Assembly: GCF_030145145.1 (NCBI RefSeq)
Contig: NZ_JAQYWD010000038.1
Coordinates: 1-63,315, forward strand
Direction: 5' to 3'
DNA length: 63,315 nucleotides
From: Desulfobacula sp.
GTDB lineage: Bacteria > Desulfobacterota > Desulfobacteria > Desulfobacterales > Desulfobacteraceae
A model generated the notes under the pieces. It was given only the letters and a program-made list of their open reading frames with translations, did not search any database and had not been told where the DNA came from. A program made the translations under genes and the position numbers. The first letter of the stretch is position 1. Each line of letters opens with the position of its first letter. Of the stretch, positions 2,848 through 14,054 are shown in pieces.

Positions 2848-3399
2848 ATGCAATTAAGTAATGGAGAAAAGCTCATTTTGATAATGCTTAGTGAAATTTA
2901 TGAAAAAATGGGTGTTGAAGGGGAATTAGATCCGGGATTTATTCGATCGGCTATTTTTAGTAAAAACGAGTGGGGTTTAGAATGGAAATATAGCGGCATT
3001 CCATTTGAAAAAGAAGAAACACCAGCATTAGTTAAAGAAGTTGTTAATATCTTGGACATGTGGTCATTTATTGAAGACTCATACAAGAAAACGTCGAACG
3101 ATGAGAAAAAGCAAATTAAAGAAGAGGCAGAACCTTTTGGAGAGCATGTAAAGTTCAGTGGTTTTGATGGAAATAATGAATCTGAGTATCTCAATGTAGC
3201 TCATTTTTTCATTAATGACTTAAAAAGTTTTCTTTGTTTTGAAGGGAGGGGCCTTAACTCACATTGCCCATCTATTGAAGTTCACAGAAGAATGTATGAT
3301 GTATTTGAGCCAATGAGAGCAGAAGCGGGTTCTGGACTGCTAAGCTCAAATCAGATAATAGAGATATTAAAGGCAAAGATTCACCCCGACCGACGATAG
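2848..3399 (+). CDS. YfbU family protein
   Basis: This 183-residue protein matches the layout of E. coli YfbU (about 164 residues). It begins with LSNGEKLILIMLSEIY, has a central helix VVNILDMWSFIEDSY, then the hallmark VKFSGFDGNNESEYL and a C-terminal segment ending in an alpha-helical DVFEPM region and a short NQIIEIL helix. The family's function is not established; E. coli YfbU has been linked to cell death phenotypes, which should not be carried over automatically. A ribosome site (TGAGGAG) supports ATG 2848. The gene stands alone among mobile-element sequences and ends in a small hairpin, so it may be cargo of the accessory region. Confidence 0.75.
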   Translation: MQLSNGEKLILIMLSEIYEKMGVEGELDPGFIRSAIFSKNEWGLEWKYSGIPFEKEETPALVKEVVNILDMWSFIEDSYKKTSNDEKKQIKEEAEPFGEHVKFSGFDGNNESEYLNVAHFFINDLKSFLCFEGRGLNSHCPSIEVHRRMYDVFEPMRAEAGSGLLSSNQIIEILKAKIHPDRR

Positions 3400-3417
3400 A
3401 TTGAATATTGAAATCCA

Positions 3418-3437
3418 GGGAGTCTTAAAAGGCTCCC
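3418..3437 (+). terminator. Hairpin after the YfbU homologue
   Basis: GGGAGTCTT (3418-3426) can pair with AAGGCTCCC (3429-3437), one G-T pair included, to make a compact hairpin 19 bp after the stop. It is followed by an AT-rich stretch rather than a clean T run. Confidence 0.45.
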
Positions 3438-3762
3438 ATTATATTGTAAAACAAAAATGTATATTAAAATCTGTAATCCTTCTAATTAATACGAATCTAT
3501 TACTTTTAGCTTTCATTACTTATCGTAACGCTTGATTTAAAGTGGTACATATCGATTTTTAGTCTGATATATATACAAACCACATCAAAGAGAAGCCTAT
3601 AGCTCTTAAACGGGCTAAAAATGGCCTTGATTTGGATATGATTTTGAATTGGGTTATATCTTGTGGACAAAAAACTTGACTTCTTGTCCACAACGGTGGT
3701 ACATAGAATTTTAGACATTAACGGAAACAAGCGTCAAACGGGTGTTTCAGGCTTTTGAAATA
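3438..3762. other. Non-coding stretch, possibly decayed
   Basis: About 325 bp without a supported gene. A reverse-strand open frame here has no ribosome site and no family character. The sequence leads into a tRNA-3'-end-like segment and may be a scar of an integrated element. Confidence 0.35.
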
Positions 3763-3794
3763 AGCGGGTGGGACAAATCCTTCCCCCGCTACCA
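3763..3794 (+). other. Sequence resembling the 3' end of a tRNA (possible attachment-site scar)
   Basis: The segment around CAAATCCTTCCCCCGCTACC resembles the T-arm, acceptor 3' strand and CCA of an initiator tRNA-Met-type gene, whose usual end is very similar. No 5' half of a tRNA is present upstream, and the T-stem has mismatches. Integrative elements that enter tRNA 3' ends often leave such a copy. An alternative is a simple hairpin (AGCGGG with CCCGCT). The terminator at 3805 directly follows, as it would after a tRNA gene. Confidence 0.35.
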
Positions 3795-3804
3795 AAACAA
3801 TTAC

Positions 3805-3838
3805 AAGGGTCTCGGAAATTTTCCAAGACCCTTTTTTT
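3805..3838 (+). terminator. Strong intrinsic terminator
   Basis: AAGGGTCT (3805-3812) and GGAAA pair with TTTCC and AGACCCTT (3826-3833), leaving one C-A mismatch, in a roughly 13-bp stem followed by a run of T. There is no intact gene just upstream; it follows the tRNA-3'-end-like sequence. Confidence 0.75.
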
Positions 3839-4134
3839 GTTTCTGGATTTAGACTTCCAACCGTACTTCCAACCTTCAGAGTATTTCCAACCAATATCTA
3901 TACTGTGTGATATTTTATTTCAATTAAGTTGAATGGGTGTTGAATTTTATTGATTTTGCTTTTTCCCAATTGAATAGCTCTTTACACAAATTTGAAACAT
4001 TGATACTGATTTACAGATCAAATTTTTTAATTGTTGCATGTCGGATAACATTAAAAATTATATGATATCCAGATCTGCACAATATGAAGAATAGGCTTCT
4101 AAAATACAATTTAATTCACCAAAGGAGATTCTTT
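3839..4134. other. AT-rich upstream region of the secreted-protein pair
   Basis: About 295 bp without a gene. Positions 4028-4066 contain a segment (GCATGTCGGATAA and flanks) that is imperfectly repeated at 5852-5891 upstream of the GAF-domain gene, suggesting a shared upstream element. Confidence 0.4.
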
Positions 4135-4494
4135 ATGAAAAAAATCAAGATTTTGATCATTTCTGGCGTATTGGTTTTGGCAATAAACGGTATTGCATTT
4201 TCAGGGGACACCCACAGTGGAAAAGCCATAGAACAAGCTGGCAAAGCTGGTTCTCATGGCAGTGCAAGCGCAGCACATGCAATTGTGGGTTCCGGCCAAG
4301 TCACCTCTGCTGCCTCTGCTGTACCCTTATCGGTTGCAGGTTCTGTTGGTGCTGTGAGTACAGAAGTTGCCAATGAATTGATGGATGCTGCTACTGCTCC
4401 CATTGGGACTCCTTTAGAAATTACAGATGAATCTGTTACAGCAGGACCTCCACCCAATGAAGTATTGAAGACAAACAAAAAAACTGATTTATAG
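4135..4494 (+). CDS. Small secreted Gly/Ala/Ser-rich protein
   Basis: I place the start at ATG 4135, 7 bp after the ribosome site AAAGGAG, giving 119 residues; an in-frame ATG at 4084 has no such site. The N-terminus is a clear signal peptide (MKKIKILIISGVLVLAINGI, then AFSGD). The mature part is rich in Gly, Ala, Ser and Val (for example SHGSASAAHAIVGSG) and ends Pro-rich and basic. No enzyme motif is seen. It lies 33 bp before a DUF2145 gene and the two are probably co-transcribed, so it may be a periplasmic partner or substrate of that protein. The family name is not known to me. Confidence 0.7.
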   Translation: MKKIKILIISGVLVLAINGIAFSGDTHSGKAIEQAGKAGSHGSASAAHAIVGSGQVTSAASAVPLSVAGSVGAVSTEVANELMDAATAPIGTPLEITDESVTAGPPPNEVLKTNKKTDL

Positions 4495-4527
4495 GAATTA
4501 TTACACCCAACCAAAACCGGAGACACC

Positions 4528-5331
4528 ATGAAATATTTGAAAAAAAATACTATTTTTGCAATTTTTATTGCGATCCAGCTATTTTCTGTAGCCCCTCTCC
4601 ATGCAGGCAGCAGCCAAGCTGGTGGTGAAATACATTTTGAACCAGAAGTTATCATCAAGTTTGCAAAAAAAGTTGAGAAGACTTTGGCCCAAAAAGGCGC
4701 AAGGATTGCTATTATTGCGAGAGTTGGTCAGTCCAGAGAAAATCTGCCAGAAGGAATAAACTTTACCCATGCTGCCTTTATAGTATATTCTCAAATAACC
4801 ACGAATGACGGTAGAAAAATTCCTGGATATGCCATATATAATCTCTATCAAAGAGCTAAAGAACCGAATGTAAGTGACCTGATACAGGATTACCCGGTGG
4901 ATTTCTTTGCCGGAGTTAAGACACTGGAAGCGGGGCTTATAATTCCGACACCCCTACTGCAAAAAAGATTATTGGAAGTGTTGGCATCGCCAACATACAA
5001 AGAGCTGCATAATCCCAATTATTCAGTCCTTGCCAATCCATTCACTCTAGATTTTCAAAACTGTACAGAACACACGCTTGATTTGATAATAGCAGCCATA
5101 TATCAAACAAATGATATAAAAATTATCAAAGCTAATGAAAAGGCTTATTTTAAGCCGCAAGCAGTAAATGTTAATCCGCTAAAGCTCCTAATAGGTTCAA
5201 TGTTCTCGGCAGATGTGACAACATCTGATCATCCTGGTTCTCCAGAAACAACGACATTTACAACGATTGGTAATTTCTTAACCCAATATGAAGCGGCATC
5301 GGAAATTTTAATTATTACACCTGATCTATAG
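4528..5331 (+). CDS. DUF2145 family secreted protein
   Basis: This 267-residue protein has a signal peptide ending near LHAGSS (residue 25-29). The mature sequence matches the DUF2145 family: ARVGQSRENLPEG, FTHAAFIVYS, PGYAIYNLYQ, QDYPVDFFAGV and LEAGLIIPTPLLQ follow each other as in that family. His81 (in FTHAAF) and Cys179 (in NCTEH) are in the order seen in permuted papain-like/NlpC-type hydrolases, where His comes first and Cys later; I infer this fold from the motif order only. It could act on peptidoglycan, lipid or a protein in the periplasm. It follows the small secreted protein by 33 bp, suggesting one operon and a joint role. Confidence 0.75.
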   Translation: MKYLKKNTIFAIFIAIQLFSVAPLHAGSSQAGGEIHFEPEVIIKFAKKVEKTLAQKGARIAIIARVGQSRENLPEGINFTHAAFIVYSQITTNDGRKIPGYAIYNLYQRAKEPNVSDLIQDYPVDFFAGVKTLEAGLIIPTPLLQKRLLEVLASPTYKELHNPNYSVLANPFTLDFQNCTEHTLDLIIAAIYQTNDIKIIKANEKAYFKPQAVNVNPLKLLIGSMFSADVTTSDHPGSPETTTFTTIGNFLTQYEAASEILIITPDL

Positions 5332-5967
5332 AGATGTTCCATGTTTGATTTTTGGACTATCGTAGATATCAATGGCTAAACACATAACACCCGCTGCACC
5401 AGACCGCTTGGGGCGGCTTTGCCACCCCGAATCCCCTCGGTTGCGCTCGGCGGTCCCTGAGCTTAACCGTTACTCTATATGAACCAAAACCAGCATTCTA
5501 TACTTTTCTTTACAGATTGGAATTATAAATGACTCAACTTTCGGGGTTGGTCATTTATGCCTGAACCCATCCATTAAAGCTGTGAAAACTGAAAGTTGAG
5601 TTATTCTTATTCCTTACTTCAAAATGTCTTGTAACTCGAAAATATAAAAAAATCACATTTAATTTTTTTGCAAGCAATAATAGAGCTCCGTCTGTCAGGA
5701 GTCAAATTCAACAAATTTGGGTATACCCCTATGCCACATAGCAATAAGTGGCAAATAGTTTCATAGGAGATTTATTCGATTGATTATTTTGCCATCAACT
5801 GTATCGTTGAATATATCTTTACATGCATTTTGTATATTGATAGACTCCTTTTTAAATTGTTTCATGTCGGATAATTCGCCAAATTACATGATGTTTCTGT
5901 CAGCAATAATTGGCTAAGCTCAGTATTTTAACCGCGTTATCCTATGGAAAAACCAGGGGAAGCGAAC
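5332..5967. other. Intergenic region with a small MITE-like repeat
   Basis: About 635 bp without a supported gene. It contains a GC-rich patch near 5399-5462, the terminal-inverted-repeat element at 5531-5602, and the second copy of the upstream element at 5852-5891. Confidence 0.5.
5531..5602. repeat. Short element with ACTCAACTTTC terminal inverted repeats
   Basis: GACTCAACTTTC at 5531-5542 is mirrored by GAAAGTTGAGTT at 5591-5602 (11 of 12 bases match in inverted orientation). The same terminal sequence bounds the longer element at 36950-37097 and occurs once at 25334-25346, so it is a dispersed family in this genome. Confidence 0.6.
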
Positions 5968-6651
5968 ATGGAAAATATGGATACAAACCCGTTCAATCGG
6001 AAAACACTTACCGAAGACGTTTTGAAGGAATGGCAGAATCTGCTCAATGAGACGGCTGAGATCCTTGGTGTTCCTGCGGGCCTGATCACGCGCGTTGATG
6101 GCAAGGAAATTGAGATCCTCCTTTCAAGTGAGACCGATGGCAACCCGTATCTAGTACCGTGTACTTCACAGTACCCGGATTCCGGCTGGTATTGTGAGCA
6201 TACCCTGCGGAGCAGGACGGTAAACCTGATTGAAAATGCATTCAATGATCCCCAGTGGAAAGACAATGCAGCCGCAGTCCAACTGCACATGATCTCCTAT
6301 TTGGGCATGCCCATTGAACGTCCTAACGGAGGACAATTCGGGACGGTATGTTTCATTGACAATAAGCAGAACGCTCATAATGAAATGCATATCAGGCTGG
6401 TCAAGCAAATCAAGAGGATGATCGAACTGTCCCTTCGCATTGTTTTAGCCAAAGCGGAGATTGACCAGCGGGATCGGTTGATTAATGACTTGAGTAAGAT
6501 TTATCCGATCTGCAGTTATTGCAAGAAGGTCCGCGAAGAAACCGGCAAGTGGGTCTCGGTAGAAAAATATGTCAGTGATATTTCTGGCGCCTTGCCCTCA
6601 CACGGGATCTGTCCGCACTGCTATGAAAGGGAGATCAACCTACTTGACTGA
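5968..6651 (+). CDS. GAF-domain protein with Cys-rich C-terminal motif
   Basis: The start is set at ATG 5968, preceded by AGGGGAA at a good distance; an upstream in-frame ATG at 5944 lacks one. The 227-residue product is a GAF-type sensor domain (about residues 10-150, with SGWYCEHTLRS and FGTVCFIDN) followed by a linker helix and a C-terminal module IYPICSYCKKVREETGKW ... HGICPHCY. This CxxC...CPxC tail is frequent at the end of PAS/GAF/receiver proteins in Desulfobacterota and may bind a metal; its role is unknown to me. There is no kinase or cyclase output domain, so it may act through protein contact. It stands alone, with an upstream element shared with the secreted-protein pair. Confidence 0.75.
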   Translation: MENMDTNPFNRKTLTEDVLKEWQNLLNETAEILGVPAGLITRVDGKEIEILLSSETDGNPYLVPCTSQYPDSGWYCEHTLRSRTVNLIENAFNDPQWKDNAAAVQLHMISYLGMPIERPNGGQFGTVCFIDNKQNAHNEMHIRLVKQIKRMIELSLRIVLAKAEIDQRDRLINDLSKIYPICSYCKKVREETGKWVSVEKYVSDISGALPSHGICPHCYEREINLLD

Positions 6652-7670: not shown

Positions 7671-8924
7671 TTAGAACATAAATTTCATGCTAATAGATAC
7701 AACATTCTGGGTGCTATTTTCAAAGATTCCAGTGACTCGTCCGCCTCCTGGATTGGAAGTATCGCCCACTGGATTATTAAAAGGTTGATCGTTGGCAACA
7801 ATATAACCATATGTGATCCCTATAACAAAAGATTTATAGGTGAAATCAAAACCAGTACAATAAACTTGTGAATCACCATGAAAGACCATTGCATCCAGCG
7901 TCTCTGCGGGAACGGGAGATTGATCATAAATATACCCTGCAAAAAGATGAAATTTCTCTGAGAAAGCATATTGTATCCCTAGTCCAAACGTTAAGGTGTT
8001 CTCCCAATTTTTTATAACTACAGTATCCCCTAATAAAACGTTATCGCTTCTTGCTATTAATCGGTCCTGGACTGACCATTCAGTCCAATAAGTATCGAAT
8101 GAAAAATTCCACTTCCGAAATGAATATGATATTCCCATAAAAAGCATGCTGGGAGTAGTAAATTTCATATTTGCAGTGGTATCAGATATCCCCAGCAGGG
8201 GAATTTCAGGTTCTAAATTCACAGTCATAGAATTAAATTCATGTTTGATTCTGCTTTTATAAGAAACACCCAAAGAAAAATTGTCTGTAATATCAATGAG
8301 GATTCCCGTTGACCATCCTACGCCTGAATCCCTGCCGTCTAATATCGATTCAAATTCTCCAGGAAGCCAACTTTTTTGTTTTATCTCCAGTTCGACTTTT
8401 TGAAAAAAAGCGCCGAAGCTTATTGACACTCCTGGAGTGGGGGAAAATACCGCTACCGGTTCCACTCGATATGATTCTATACTGGATTCTATACCGGCAG
8501 TTGTAAATCGACCTTCCCAATTATCAGGCCACCGACTGGACTGACCAAAAGGTGAATATATACCAAGACCCATTGAGAATGTATCATTTATTTTACAGGT
8601 TGCATATGCATAAGGGATTACATGATTTTCACTATCGGTTTTTGTGATTAAGCCATTTTTGCTGCCCGGTATGTTAGACGTCCCATTACTTACAAATTCT
8701 GCGTTTCCGGAAAAAAAATAGGTGAGCCCTGTTTGAACTTGAACGTCTTTTAATTTAAGTATTCCAGATGGATTGTAAAAAATGGCCGATGGATCATCTG
8801 CTGCAGCAGTAAATGCGCCACCCAGGGCAAATGCCTTTTGACCCTGGGCATAATTAGCAAATCCATGCCCATATGCATGAATAGGAAATACAATAAAAGA
8901 AAAAATCAAGACTACCCATACCAT
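7671..8924 (-). CDS. OmpP1/FadL/TodX family outer-membrane transporter
   Basis: This 417-residue beta-barrel protein has a short signal peptide and then the FadL hallmark region: HGFANYAQGQKAFALGGAF, AADDPSAIFYNPSGI, and later SRWPDNWEGRF and the final aromatic MKFMF typical of outer-membrane barrels. FadL-type channels take up long-chain fatty acids or other hydrophobic molecules by lateral diffusion into the outer membrane. A strong ribosome site (AAAGGAG) precedes ATG 8924. It begins only 19 bp after the stop of the second cyclase gene, so it is probably the last gene of a three-cistron operon. That would place uptake of a hydrophobic substrate under the same control as a cyclic-nucleotide signal. 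Confidence 0.85.
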   Translation of the reverse strand: MVWVVLIFSFIVFPIHAYGHGFANYAQGQKAFALGGAFTAAADDPSAIFYNPSGILKLKDVQVQTGLTYFFSGNAEFVSNGTSNIPGSKNGLITKTDSENHVIPYAYATCKINDTFSMGLGIYSPFGQSSRWPDNWEGRFTTAGIESSIESYRVEPVAVFSPTPGVSISFGAFFQKVELEIKQKSWLPGEFESILDGRDSGVGWSTGILIDITDNFSLGVSYKSRIKHEFNSMTVNLEPEIPLLGISDTTANMKFTTPSMLFMGISYSFRKWNFSFDTYWTEWSVQDRLIARSDNVLLGDTVVIKNWENTLTFGLGIQYAFSEKFHLFAGYIYDQSPVPAETLDAMVFHGDSQVYCTGFDFTYKSFVIGITYGYIVANDQPFNNPVGDTSNPGGGRVTGIFENSTQNVVSISMKFMF

Positions 8925-8943: not shown

Positions 8944-10188
8944 TTAAATTTTCTGTTTATCAATGGGGTTATACCCACTGACAAAATAAGTTTTTACAAA
9001 TCCTTTGCCTTTGATTCTTATAGGGCTTCTATCGTTTAAAAAGAACCGTCTTCCTATCATTTCTTTTGTTTCCTGAGAAATTTGGATTTTTCCTATTACG
9101 CCGTGTGATTCCATCCGAGAAGCGATATTAACTGTATCTCCCCAAAGGTCATAGATCAATCCGTTTTTGCCAATCAATCCTGCGACCACTGGACCGGAGT
9201 TGATACCTATTCTTAAATCTAATCCTTCATAGTTTTTGATGATTTGCATGAACTCCAATGCAATTTTGGTGATGATGACGGCATGATTTTCTGTGATTTT
9301 GGGAACCCCGGCGACTACCATATATAAATCGCGAATGGTTTTTATTCTTTCAATTTGGAAATTTTCAGTTTTTTCATCGAATTTTGAAAAAATGTCATCT
9401 AAAATAGAGATTGCCTTACCATGGTTATCATTGTCATATGATTTTTCCAACCCAACAACTTTTACAAACATAACACTACATTCACTGAAGGCTTCTGCAA
9501 ACGTTTTCCCTTCTTCAGTAATTTTTTTTACAATTTCATCTGGCAGTAAATTTTTTAATAAGATATCCAATTGCTCATTGGATTTGAAAAATTGATTTTC
9601 AACTTTGTTTAATTTGTTTACAAATATACAATTTATCAAAATCAGTGAAAAAAGAATTGCCAATGGGGTAAATAAATAGGAAAAAGAATCCGCTTTTTGG
9701 CTTGTTATAATGGGTTCAAACTCAATGATTCTAAGTTCAAAAAAAATAAACATGCATAACCCAATGAAAAAATGGATAAAAACATATCGTTTTTTTTCTC
9801 CAATTAGAACAAATTGAATGCCGAAGATATACACCAGCAACCAGTGATGGACGCTAATTGGATGAATTTTATGATTTCCTTGGATAAAAATTAAAATAAA
9901 CGCTATCCAGAAGAGAATAATAATTGATAAAATATGTCCTGCAAGCGTTGGCTTTCCTTTTTTTAAGAGCCATAATATAATTGCTAAAAATGCCAAAATT
10001 GCAAGGTTTATTGCTAACAGGGGAAAAACACTATGAAGGATAGCGATGCTTATCCATACGCAGGAAATGAGAAATAAAATAACGACGAATGAATAGAAAA
10101 AGAGAGTTAATTTTTCCTTTTCTCTTTTTTTATATAAAAAATCATGAAAGATAAAATTTGATTCAAACTTGGTTTTTTTAATAGTCAT
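8944..10188 (-). CDS. Membrane class III nucleotide cyclase, C2-like half (metal Asp lost, Asn/Arg kept)
   Basis: This 414-residue protein has about six TM helices (residues 27-190), a coupling segment LLKNLLPDEIVKKITEEGK, and a class III cyclase domain (about 236-406). Compared with Rv1625c, the first metal Asp is replaced by Lys (FVKVVG, K243), the Gly before the second metal Asp by Arg (TIRDLYM, D287 kept), and the adenine-binding Lys by Arg281. The other set is intact: Asp347 in YDLWG, Asn354 and Arg358 in TVNIASRMES, and the phosphate-binding KGKG at 393-396. This is the pattern of a C2 half, unable to build a site as a homodimer. Its ATG overlaps the stop of the upstream cyclase gene (ATGA), so the two are translationally coupled. 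See the findings for the heterodimer proposal. Confidence 0.8.
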   Translation of the reverse strand: MTIKKTKFESNFIFHDFLYKKREKEKLTLFFYSFVVILFLISCVWISIAILHSVFPLLAINLAILAFLAIILWLLKKGKPTLAGHILSIIILFWIAFILIFIQGNHKIHPISVHHWLLVYIFGIQFVLIGEKKRYVFIHFFIGLCMFIFFELRIIEFEPIITSQKADSFSYLFTPLAILFSLILINCIFVNKLNKVENQFFKSNEQLDILLKNLLPDEIVKKITEEGKTFAEAFSECSVMFVKVVGLEKSYDNDNHGKAISILDDIFSKFDEKTENFQIERIKTIRDLYMVVAGVPKITENHAVIITKIALEFMQIIKNYEGLDLRIGINSGPVVAGLIGKNGLIYDLWGDTVNIASRMESHGVIGKIQISQETKEMIGRRFFLNDRSPIRIKGKGFVKTYFVSGYNPIDKQKI

Positions 10189-10784
10189 TTTAAATTATTA
10201 GACAAATCAAACAAATATGTAACAAAATGATTATTATGATTTAAATGCACTTTTTTTTCTAAAAAATTATATTTGGTTTTAAGCAGTTTATATGTATCTT
10301 TTGTTATCTGTATTGATCCCGGTATTCCAGTAGACTCCATTTTTGATGCGATATCCACCGCTCCTCCCCAAAGGTCGTACGTAAATTTTTTTTTCCCAAT
10401 AACCCCTTCGATAAGAGATCCTGAATTAATTCCAATTCTTATAGAAATATTATCGTAGGAATTTATCACAGTTAAAAATTCCAGCGCTAATTGAATGATT
10501 ACGTCTGCGTGTTTACTATTTGAATTTGGTGAACAGGAAGCGACCATATAGGCGTCTCCTATGGTTTTGATTTTTTGCAAACCAAATTTTTCAGTTAGAT
10601 CATCAAAGCGACCAAATATTTCATTTAAAAAAGAGATAAGATCACTCGGTGCCATGCTTTCGGATAATTTTGTAAAACAGACAATATCAGCAAATAAGAC
10701 CGAACAACTTTCATGTTTGTTTATAAAACCTTTTCCTTCATGCCTGATTCGTTCAGCAATGCCTTTTGGGAATATTTTTTCCAA
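10185..10784 (-). CDS. Class III nucleotide cyclase catalytic domain, C1-like half (separated by frameshift)
   Basis: This frame carries a complete class III cyclase domain (199 codons from a TTG at 10784, which has no ribosome site). Both metal aspartates are present: Asp33 in FADIVCFT and Asp77 in KTIGDAYM; the adenine-site Lys71 and Asp137 (YDLWG) also remain. The transition-state Asn is Asp144 and the Arg is Lys148 (WGGAVDIASKMES), and the KGKG lysines are missing. This is a C1-like pattern. It has no ATG of its own and continues, after a -1 shift at the A8 run (10787-10794), the membrane half at 10721-11431. The gene ends in ATGA overlapping the next cyclase. Confidence 0.75.
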   Translation of the reverse strand: MEKIFPKGIAERIRHEGKGFINKHESCSVLFADIVCFTKLSESMAPSDLISFLNEIFGRFDDLTEKFGLQKIKTIGDAYMVASCSPNSNSKHADVIIQLALEFLTVINSYDNISIRIGINSGSLIEGVIGKKKFTYDLWGGAVDIASKMESTGIPGSIQITKDTYKLLKTKYNFLEKKVHLNHNNHFVTYLFDLSNNLK

Positions 10785-11431
10785 TATTTTTTTTGTAAAT
10801 CATTGGCTTTGGATAACACTATCTCTGTTTCGGTGATACTTTCGACAAATAAACGCGTTATCCCTGCTAAAATTATATATGCAGAAATCAAAACGAAATG
10901 CCTTCCTAATAGATGGGTTTCATCGCTTATGGAAAAATAGGGGCGGTGAAATATTATTTGATACTGAACAATAATAAACATAACTGCAACAACAGTCATT
11001 AAAAAATATTTCACAAAATAATTTGAATCGGAAAATAAAAAAAAGGACACTGAAATCATGACTAAAAAATAAAACTGGTTGGCATTAACTTCTCTTACGC
11101 CAACGCCTTCAACAAATAAAAACATTTGCCACAAAAGAATTAATACCGATATGAATAATAAATATTTTGATAAGATTATGAGATTTTTTTGTAGAAAGTA
11201 GAGAACCAAAACGACAAAAGATAAAAGGAAAAGAAGGGAAAAGCCTTGAAAAACAAATCCTTTAATGAGAAAGAAAACTGACCAGTAGAATGTAACCAAG
11301 AAGACCATTGCACAAGAAAACAAAATCAGGTGCAGACTTCTTTTCTGTCTATTTATTCTTGGATTAGATATTTTAAGATTATCACCGAAGAACAATTCTA
11401 TCAGGTTGTTTTTTTTTATAAAGGTTTTCAT
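10721..11431 (-). CDS. Six-TM membrane half of the upstream cyclase (frame 0)
   Basis: The frame from ATG 11431 encodes six TM helices (about residues 33-200) like those of the downstream cyclase, then SKANDLQKK. Here it reads through an eight-A run in frame 0 and ends after 21 further unrelated codons. In the -1 frame the same DNA continues as ILEKIFPKGIAERIRHEGKG, the normal coupling helix of this family, into the cyclase domain. The undisturbed protein would be about 415 residues, almost the same as its partner. It could be a real frameshift, a phase-variable or programmed one, or a sequencing error in the homopolymer. Confidence 0.7.
   Translation of the reverse strand: MKTFIKKNNLIELFFGDNLKISNPRINRQKRSLHLILFSCAMVFLVTFYWSVFFLIKGFVFQGFSLLFLLSFVVLVLYFLQKNLIILSKYLLFISVLILLWQMFLFVEGVGVREVNANQFYFLVMISVSFFLFSDSNYFVKYFLMTVVAVMFIIVQYQIIFHRPYFSISDETHLLGRHFVLISAYIILAGITRLFVESITETEIVLSKANDLQKKYWKKYSQKALLNESGMKEKVL
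10787..10794 (-). promoter_or_regulatory. Eight-A slippery run joining the two cyclase frames
   Basis: On the coding strand the run reads CAA AAA AAA TAT and contains the heptamer A AAA AAA in the correct phase for -1 slippage of two tRNA-Lys. After a -1 slip the next codons are ATA TTG GAA, giving an unbroken cyclase protein. Transcriptional slippage on eight A residues would give a similar result. Confidence 0.5.
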
Positions 11432-12638: not shown

Positions 12639-14054
12639 TTATAAATGCCCCAAGCTTGACCGCATAAACTCGAGGATTTCTTTTTTGCCTGCCTGCGGGT
12701 TTTTGGACAGGAAGGCCGCGGTCTGGTTAGCAGCAAATGCCGCTGAAATGGACGTGCCCGCATAAATACCCGGATCGGCTTTGTATCCCACCGGCATGTC
12801 GGCAAACCCGGGAAGATAAACGTCCACAAAATCACCATAATTTGTATTTTTCCAGTTTCGGCCGGACGGTGCCAGGGCACCAATGCCGATGACGGATGCA
12901 TATGCAGCCGGATATACCGGTTTTCCCGTGGGCTCATTGCCGGCCGATGCCACAATGATCAGGCCTTTGGATGCACTATATTCGAGTGTGTCGTTAATAA
13001 AATTGCTAGGGGTAGGTGACCCCCAGCTCAGGCTCATCACCCGGGCACCATTTGCTAAAGCAAACTTAATGCCGTTCATCAATGCAACGCTGGAAGTGAA
13101 CCCGTTATCATCAAATGCCCGGATGGCAATCACCGGATTGTTGCTGTCGTTGGTTTTTGTAACCCCGAACGGTGTGACAGCACCTGCAGCAATAAGGGCC
13201 ATCTGTGTCCCATGTCCCAATGTATCTGAAATTATAGCGTCCGGGTTTAAGGCATCCTGGCTTGCAAGCAACTGCCCGTCGGGCATGGCACCCGGGGCAA
13301 GGCCGGAATCAAGTACGGCAATGGGGACAGCGCCTTCAGCCGGTGGATTGAAATCAAGCTGGGGTGTGGTTTCTGTGTCCGGCACATATCGATGGGGCAG
13401 GGCAATGGGATATGCATAATTGGGTTCTGCTGTCTCAATACCGGGGAGGCCTTTGATTTGCCTGACCAATGCGGGAATTTTTGCCTGGTCAGATACTTTT
13501 ATTCTGTAAATGCCCAGTGTCCGGTTTTCTGAGATCAGGGTTCCCCCCAGTTGTTTTAAAATCTTATTCACCTGTTCGGGGTCTATGTCCGGCTTGAGGC
13601 GGATCAGGATTTCTCCTTGGACATACAGGGAACCATCTTCCGGATTACGGGCAATATCCAGGTTTGAAGTTTTTCCAGGGGGTGTGATGGTATCGGTATT
13701 GCCGGATTTGAAGATATGGATTGCTGTCAGACGGACACGGGTGCCGCTGGATGTCGGCGCTGATTCCCATTTCAGAACATGATTCAATGGATTTAAAATG
13801 GATTCCAGCCCCCGTTGAAGGTCATGGTTCTCAAAATGAGCCGAGATATCCGGATTCAGGTCCGGGTCAATGTAAACCTTAATGTCTGTTTTCTTCGCCA
13901 GATCATTCATCAGGACATGAAGTTTTACCTGATCTGCGTGGATGGTGATGCGATTCTGATTCAGGGTCAGTTCATACGCTGAGGCATGGGAGTAGAACAC
14001 CACCCATAACAGACAGAGAATACTTTTGATGTTGAAGGGCCATTTCATGATCAT
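12639..14054 (-). CDS. Secreted subtilisin-like (S8) serine protease with N-terminal STN-like domain
   Basis: This 471-residue exported protease has a signal peptide (residues 1-27), then a segment of about 70 residues (TIHADQVKLHVLMNDLAKKT through NHVLKWE) like the secretin/TonB short N-terminal (STN) domain. A propeptide-like domain follows (ILIRLKPDIDPEQVNKIL, 149-215). The S8 domain (243-471) carries the full catalytic set: Asp249 in VLDSG, His281 in LGHGTQ, oxyanion Asn373 in ASAGNEP and Ser435 in GTSISAA. STN domains normally occur in secretins and TonB-dependent receptors, so this fusion is unusual. There is no C-terminal anchor. Two in-frame ATGs (14054, 14048) are possible starts and neither has a strong ribosome site. 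Confidence 0.85.
   Translation of the reverse strand: MIMKWPFNIKSILCLLWVVFYSHASAYELTLNQNRITIHADQVKLHVLMNDLAKKTDIKVYIDPDLNPDISAHFENHDLQRGLESILNPLNHVLKWESAPTSSGTRVRLTAIHIFKSGNTDTITPPGKTSNLDIARNPEDGSLYVQGEILIRLKPDIDPEQVNKILKQLGGTLISENRTLGIYRIKVSDQAKIPALVRQIKGLPGIETAEPNYAYPIALPHRYVPDTETTPQLDFNPPAEGAVPIAVLDSGLAPGAMPDGQLLASQDALNPDAIISDTLGHGTQMALIAAGAVTPFGVTKTNDSNNPVIAIRAFDDNGFTSSVALMNGIKFALANGARVMSLSWGSPTPSNFINDTLEYSASKGLIIVASAGNEPTGKPVYPAAYASVIGIGALAPSGRNWKNTNYGDFVDVYLPGFADMPVGYKADPGIYAGTSISAAFAANQTAAFLSKNPQAGKKEILEFMRSSLGHL

Follow-up and report, generated by a model that had tools for sequence, protein, structure and literature searches.

A candidate bacterial C1/C2-type adenylyl cyclase pair with a frame break in its upstream gene

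We analysed a stretch of 63,315 nt of Desulfobacula sp. DNA, referred to below as the window, whose numbering is used for all coordinates. Two neighbouring cyclase genes lie on the minus strand, and we call the upstream gene A and the downstream gene B. Along that strand, a membrane ORF of A is followed by a catalytic ORF of A, by B and by an OMPP1/FadL/TodX gene. The features are listed here with the evidence that defines them.

10721 to 11431, minus strand: membrane part of A, a 236-aa ORF with a TAA stop past a run of eight A (ORF list)
10787 to 10794, minus strand: the run of eight A (A8) in the linker of A, where the membrane and catalytic frames meet (sequence)
10185 to 10784, minus strand: catalytic domain of A, 199 aa, C1-like, with D33, D77 and R116 kept and N144D, R148K and K182N lost (PF00211, residues)
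10185 to 10188, minus strand: ATGA, in which the stop of A overlaps the start of B (sequence)
8944 to 10188, minus strand: cyclase B, 414 aa, C2-like, with D243K lost (together with F247L, T248E and G286R) and K283, D347, N354, R358 and K393 kept (PF00211, residues, AlphaFold2, Foldseek)
7671 to 8924, minus strand: OMPP1/FadL/TodX outer-membrane transporter (PF03349, E-value 5.8e-48)

Both A and B belong to the class III nucleotide cyclases. The catalytic ORF of A matched PF00211 with an E-value of 5.3e-50 (170 bits) and B matched it with 1.1e-46 (159.2 bits), well above the Pfam cut-off of 21.9, and the predicted folds agree. The transporter gene starts 19 bp beyond B with an AGGAG ahead of its start codon, and likely shares a transcript with B; its match to the FadL model falls below the NCBIfam cut-off. 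The GC content of the A/B region is 0.30-0.32 versus 0.446 for the window. Elsewhere in the window, positions 12639-14054 encode a subtilase (Peptidase_S8) with a fervidolysin-type N-terminal prodomain. The genome contains five matches to B, A and B themselves included; the remaining three cyclases fall far behind, with at best 38.5 bits against B. It also contains 14 cNMP-binding matches, which are possible receivers of cAMP.

We compared the active-site residues of A and B with the eight positions of the adenylyl and guanylyl cyclase site set out in section 13 of PMC3591389. That section places the two metal aspartates and an Arg on the C1 or alpha side, and the base-specifying Lys and Asp, the ribose Asn, an Arg and a Lys on the C2 or beta side. 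A carries D33, D77, R116, K73 and D137 and is substituted at the remaining three positions (N144D, R148K and K182N), with N182 at the position of the first Lys of KGKG. In B, K243 replaces the first metal Asp, while D287, R326, K283, D347, N354, R358 and K393 (of KGKG) are present. The initial annotation of this DNA had described A as keeping Asp33 and Asp77, having Asp144 and Lys148, and lacking the KGKG lysines, all of which we confirmed. Its account of B was right for Lys243, Asp347, Asn354, Arg358 and KGKG, but not for an Arg at the position of the adenine Lys. K283 is kept there, four residues before the second metal Asp, and aligns with EKIKTIG of AC9 C2; we take the Lys within EKIK to be the adenine Lys from the numbering of AC2 (K938). 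The reported Arg was a misreading; the Arg residues of B are R281, which replaces a Lys that is 99% conserved, and R286, which replaces an invariant Gly. K283 and D347 of B are an ATP-type pair, and the Glu and Cys of guanylyl cyclases are absent, both A and B carrying Lys and Asp at those positions.

When the metal side of A (D33, D77 and R116) is combined with the base side of B (K283, D347, N354, R358 and K393), the composite site holds all eight residues. The reverse site lacks four of the eight (D243K of B; N144D, R148K and K182N of A), and these are all the losses in the pair. By its residues, then, the pair has the arrangement of a C1/C2-type heterodimer, with the metal aspartates on one chain, the base, ribose and phosphate residues on the other and the second site dead. 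Neither chain alone holds the complete catalytic set of an Rv1625c-type enzyme, since A lacks N, R and K8 and B lacks D1. Judged from the alignment, the division of roles is real and mirrors that of mammalian C1 and C2 at all eight positions and in the surrounding motifs. In the alignment, the C1 domain of AC8 (8buz), an active enzyme, shares with A both the Asp that replaces the Asn and the Lys that replaces the Arg.

The residues kept by A leave room for another arrangement, in which either A or B would serve as a regulatory pseudo-enzyme. A retains both metal aspartates, the adenine Lys and the substrate Asp, and its N-to-D and R-to-K swaps are conservative, so that it could form a weak homodimer modulated by B; alternatively, B could pair with one of the three further matches in the genome. 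We consider this unlikely, because A is also without the KGKG loop, the three other cyclases score so low against B, and B adjoins and overlaps A.

The initial annotation had further held that losses this complementary would not be favoured by random decay. A simple count null, in which the four losses (three in A and one in B) fall at random over eight positions in each chain, gave p = 0.078, and the loss count by itself is therefore modest support for complementarity. To look beyond single residues, we used 106 intact homologues, leaving out L029, L030, L074:808, L104:7003 and L058:3-, and dropping fragments below 150 aa (L118 154-183 and L098 2860) before the counts. Their alignment has 56 columns conserved at 90% or more, 29 in the metal half and 27 in the other half. 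B deviates at seven of these 56 columns, all seven in the metal half and none of the 27 in the C2 half, while A deviates at 15, six before the midpoint and nine after (Fisher p 0.017). The same count gave 6 and 9 for AC8 C1, and 7-8 and 3-4 for the C2 domains of AC5, AC8 and AC9. Expressed as a z-score of scaled similarity, metal half minus C2 half, A is at +1.13 and B at -3.22; three mammalian C1 domains range from +0.58 to +1.20 and three C2 domains from -2.43 to -3.67. B lies below all 106 intact homologues (rank 0/106) and A above 102 of the 106.

None of the 5565 pairs of intact homologues was as asymmetric as A and B. After removal of the seven catalytic columns, four of the 5565 were, and after removal of whole active-site motifs the number rose to 1077, at which point the asymmetry of A and B is ordinary. 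The degenerate single cyclases L029 and L030 have no such asymmetry (z -0.17 and +0.32). We conclude from these alignments that the asymmetry signal is real, lies in and beside the active site and is driven mainly by B. The claim of complementarity beyond random decay thus has modest support by residue count and stronger support at the level of motifs, mostly through B. Raw scores against solved structures were higher with C1 for A and with C2 for B, which by itself proves little because a preference for one side also occurs in intact bacterial controls (L031: 108.6 to AC5 C1 and 124.6 to AC2 C2; L032: 120.7 and 89.1, respectively). With the motifs masked, A ranked 60 of 106 in C1-likeness and B 3 of 106 in C2-likeness, and the degenerate single cyclase L030 ranked 0.

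The count null also fits the idea that A and B are remnants of a tandem cyclase pair in decay, with complementarity that is partly luck and a frame break that is another lesion. Decay of this kind is at odds with the concentration of the losses by role, with the 27 of 27 conserved columns that B keeps in its C-terminal half without a stop codon, and with a catalytic frame of A that stays open up to the ATGA overlap.

We predicted the structures of both proteins with AlphaFold2. The catalytic ORF of A gave a mean pLDDT of 87.0 and a pTM of 0.84, and B gave 79.7 and 0.61. The model of B has six membrane-size helices (residues 11-50, 57-76, 80-104, 111-127 in two pieces, 133-156 and 168-214), followed by a helical domain and a cyclase fold; a 19-residue hydropathy rule found five hydrophobic segments in B and five in the membrane ORF of A. 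The Rv1625c-type architecture of six TM helices, CTE and catalytic domain in one chain is present in the model of B, whereas A is divided between two frames. The best solved Foldseek matches of both A-cat (the catalytic ORF of A) and B were to the bacterial cyclase 5o5l/5o5k, with Rv1625c entries among the next. Among the best 50 rows, the isolated mammalian AC-domain crystal chains were C1 for A (1cjk_A and 1azs_A) and C2 for B (1cs4_B), which is not independent evidence because Foldseek also uses sequence; soluble guanylyl cyclase (sGC) chains of both kinds occurred in both lists. The membrane ORF of A has a weak likeness to B (24%, E-value 0.0037). It matched 3 of 97 genomes at an E-value of 0.01, its own included, and the outside matches were weak (best 0.0038).

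The membrane ORF of A (11431-10721) and its catalytic ORF (10784-10185) are in different frames that meet at the A8 run. Of the initial proposal of two six-TM proteins linked by an ATGA overlap, the overlap stands, but the upstream gene as assembled is not one six-TM protein. As assembled, a ribosome starting at 11431 terminates at 10721, before the overlap, and by eye no Shine-Dalgarno-like sequence precedes the start of B or of A. The break thus severs the catalytic domain from its membrane anchor and uncouples the start of B in the assembled sequence. Neither B nor the catalytic frame of A up to the overlap is interrupted. By eye, the linker of A in its two frames (SKAND and FPKGIAERI) aligns with that of B (FKSNE and LPDEIVKKI), which suggests that a -1 slip on A8 would rejoin the frames in register. 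According to PMC1088944, a large share of genomes show selection against A/T runs once these reach a length of nine, and certain IS elements that carry eight A point to productive slippage at that length. Such runs are common in the window, where 44 of at least eight A or T were listed. RNA structure downstream of A8 did not exceed background (z -0.08), and no stimulatory hairpin above background was found there.

The break therefore means that the pair is switched off, that it is restored by slippage or that the assembly is wrong. An assembly error at a homopolymer is conceivable, and extending it to the odd residues would make A and B ordinary tandem homodimeric cyclases. That A and B are ordinary tandems of this kind we regard as very improbable: there are several substitutions, they affect separate codons and they are specific to a role, and the frame stays open across further A or T runs, eight or nine long, within A-cat, B and the FadL-type gene.

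To place these residue patterns among relatives, we surveyed 143 domains, none shorter than 150 aa, taken from the window and 130 loci. The loci comprise the neighbourhoods of 45 other matches above 160 bits (among the matches listed, from a search that scored at most 11 first-look candidates per genome), five further loci (G042, G071, G027, G408 and G577) and 80 loci among the matches listed in a genome_contigs scan. The two metal aspartates, the Asn and the Arg (D1, D2, N and R) are kept by 136 of the 143 domains, and all eight residues by 129. The seven domains that lost at least one of the four are A, B, L029, L030, L161, L162 and one copy of L074 (R to P); L161 and L162 entered only this residue survey and a quick tree. 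B is the only domain of the 143 that lost the first metal Asp and kept the five C2-role residues. The residue pattern of A also occurs in L161, a degenerate single cyclase from the same order.

Three of these degenerate cyclases, L029 5958-6974 (G113), L030 5956-7101 (G042) and L161 2256-3314 (G280), form a clade in the quick tree (SH-aLRT 97) and come from three families of the same order. All three lost N, R and the KGKG Lys, and two also lost D1, while L161 keeps both metal aspartates and looks C1-like. Their fetched neighbourhoods contain no second cyclase; they may be conserved pseudo-cyclases or have partners in trans. A fourth, L162 1382-2470 (G195), is also a degenerate single cyclase (D1 to N, N to T, R to A and KGKG Lys to S). 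Lower-scoring matches (about 113-118 bits), which are large class III cyclase ORFs of about 1,000-1,200 aa, also form clusters, for example a few kb apart on contigs C17, C39 and C50 of a genome of the same order (G188).

Ten of the 80 loci hold more than one cyclase, and in eight of them two adjoin on one strand (L058, L064, L074, L083, L087, L090, L094 and L105); in seven of these eight, neither copy has lost any of D1, D2, N and R. One example is L083 of Acidimicrobiaceae, with adjacent ORFs of 441 and 434 aa (3347-4669 and 4673-5974) that each keep the four residues, one copy having Arg in place of the KGKG Lys. In the tandem of Microseira wollei (L074 808-2580 and 2933-4642), Pro replaces the catalytic Arg in the upstream copy and the partner copy is complete, a possible early step of an A/B-like asymmetry. 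The first 50 neighbourhoods, several of which end at contig ends, contained no second cyclase domain at an E-value of 1e-15 with an HMM that we built from these cyclases.

B has matches in 19 of 145 genomes of relatives at an E-value of 1e-20 (at most 12 candidates scored per genome) and in 4 of 345 genomes of the phylum at 1e-42 (at most five per genome), while A-cat has matches in 3 of 86 genomes of the family at 1e-25, the own genome included in each case. No second adjacent A/B-like pair was found among the matches in these 145, 86 and 345 genomes, nor a homologous pair among the matches listed in a second genome_contigs scan. Searches by peptide patterns found no close relatives in genome_contigs or viral_contigs. 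On plasmids, 139 records match B, none covering 80% of it in one place, and the ten of these that were listed have about 36% identity over 58% of B. Conservation of the losses as a pair, by which the initial annotation had proposed to check its reading, was thus not found. Nor did we find a homologous pair with complete residues, complete tandems such as L094 and L064 not being counted as orthologues of A and B. That A and B are obligate partners is thus something we infer.

A and B share a shortening of five residues between the HA and RIGI motifs. Among 93 measurable rows it is common to these two only, with a spacing of 24 versus 29 in 67 of the 93; the survey comprised 119 rows, of which 26 were not measurable and one further row (AC5 C2) was mis-measured. 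This suggests that A and B have a common origin and are probably tandem duplicates. Trees also join them (support 88/75, and 90 in the quick tree) with long-branch warnings, and when either is left out the other becomes unplaced. We rejected the tree by itself as too weak a basis for a sister relation, and their kinship is therefore rested on the shortening. With lengths of 1.79 and 2.13, respectively, versus a median of 0.38, A and B are among the three longest branches. By identity over aligned columns, the nearest domain to both is L053 of Leptospiraceae (53% and 49%), which has a hydrophobic N-terminal part, keeps D1, D2, N and R and is shortened by unread bases. The pair may have arisen by tandem duplication of an acquired cyclase. 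A does not group with C1 or B with C2 in the tree, whose backbone is mostly unsettled (42 of 113 inner branches open). Because the likeness lies mostly in active-site motifs and the tree has no such grouping, common descent with animal C1 and C2 is not supported.

We think it less likely than not that A and B are decaying relics. The case for that reading is built on the frame break, the long branches, the low GC content, the single occurrence of the pair among the genomes searched and the degenerate single cyclases (L029, L030, L161 and L162), in addition to the count null. The break, the uncoupled start of B, the branches, the missing homologous pair, the same-order single cyclases and the count null also count against a heterodimer, as do a rank of only 102/106 for A, the ordinary asymmetry once whole motifs are removed and the one-sided raw scores of intact controls. 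With moderate confidence, we nevertheless prefer to see in A and B a bacterial heterodimer of the C1/C2 type, either functional or broken not long ago.

In the heterodimer that we propose, a bacterial six-TM class IIIa adenylyl cyclase would have been duplicated in tandem, and the two symmetric sites of the homodimer divided into one working and one dead site, as in animal adenylyl cyclases and sGC. A would take the C1 role with the metal aspartates and the phosphate Arg, and B the C2 role with adenine recognition, the ribose Asn, the catalytic Arg and the KGKG Lys. The two would dimerise, and cAMP would be made only by A:B at one ATP site. The membrane domains would act as receivers or sensors. 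Their ligand may be hydrophobic, since a FadL-type gene adjoins B and Rv1625c is reported in PMC12505454 to require its membrane domain for C18 mono-unsaturated fatty acids to inhibit it. The FadL-type gene itself is a possible functional partner of a lipid- or hydrocarbon-sensing cyclase. For the pair to function, slippage on A8 or an assembly error at the break would be required; otherwise its loss would be recent. A bolder version, which we think improbable, is that an obligate heterodimeric membrane cyclase evolved independently in bacteria by tandem duplication, as an unfused step before the animal fusion, with its output gated by A8 slippage that sets the amount of membrane-anchored A and of coupled B.

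A bacterial C1/C2-type pair was not described in the titles and abstract openings of the literature searched, which included little subscription literature. According to PMC9552081, class III cyclases of bacteria form homodimers, a fused dimer is not known from bacteria, and the monomers of Rv1625c contribute equally to two productive sites. B in its model resembles the Rv1625c/Cya six-TM class IIIa cyclases in the six-TM anchor, the helical or CTE linker and the one class III domain, and it matches Rv1625c/Cya 7yzk over 394 alignment columns in Foldseek. Unlike Rv1625c, neither A nor B carries the complete residue set. The bacterial tandems L083, L094, L064, L087, L090 and L105 are likewise neighbouring class III genes on one strand, but D1, D2, N and R are present in each of their copies.

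The alpha and beta chains of sGC are separate subunits that together restore one site (section 13 of PMC3591389), and fungal rhodopsin-cyclases function as heterodimers according to PMC8815786. These systems are eukaryotic, and sGC is of guanylyl type, whereas the Lys and Asp of A and B specify adenine and the N-terminus is six-TM. The mammalian M1-C1-M2-C2 enzymes have the same split of the eight roles, with A scoring higher with C1, B scoring higher with C2 and the Asp and Lys of A shared by AC8 C1. The mammalian halves form one polypeptide, whereas A and B are two genes with separate ORFs and so lack the single-chain arrangement of a mammalian transmembrane cyclase. If our reading is correct, this two-gene bacterial split would be a living counterpart of a stage that lies between the homodimers of bacteria and the pseudoheterodimers of animals. 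It would also indicate that site asymmetry can arise ahead of fusion.
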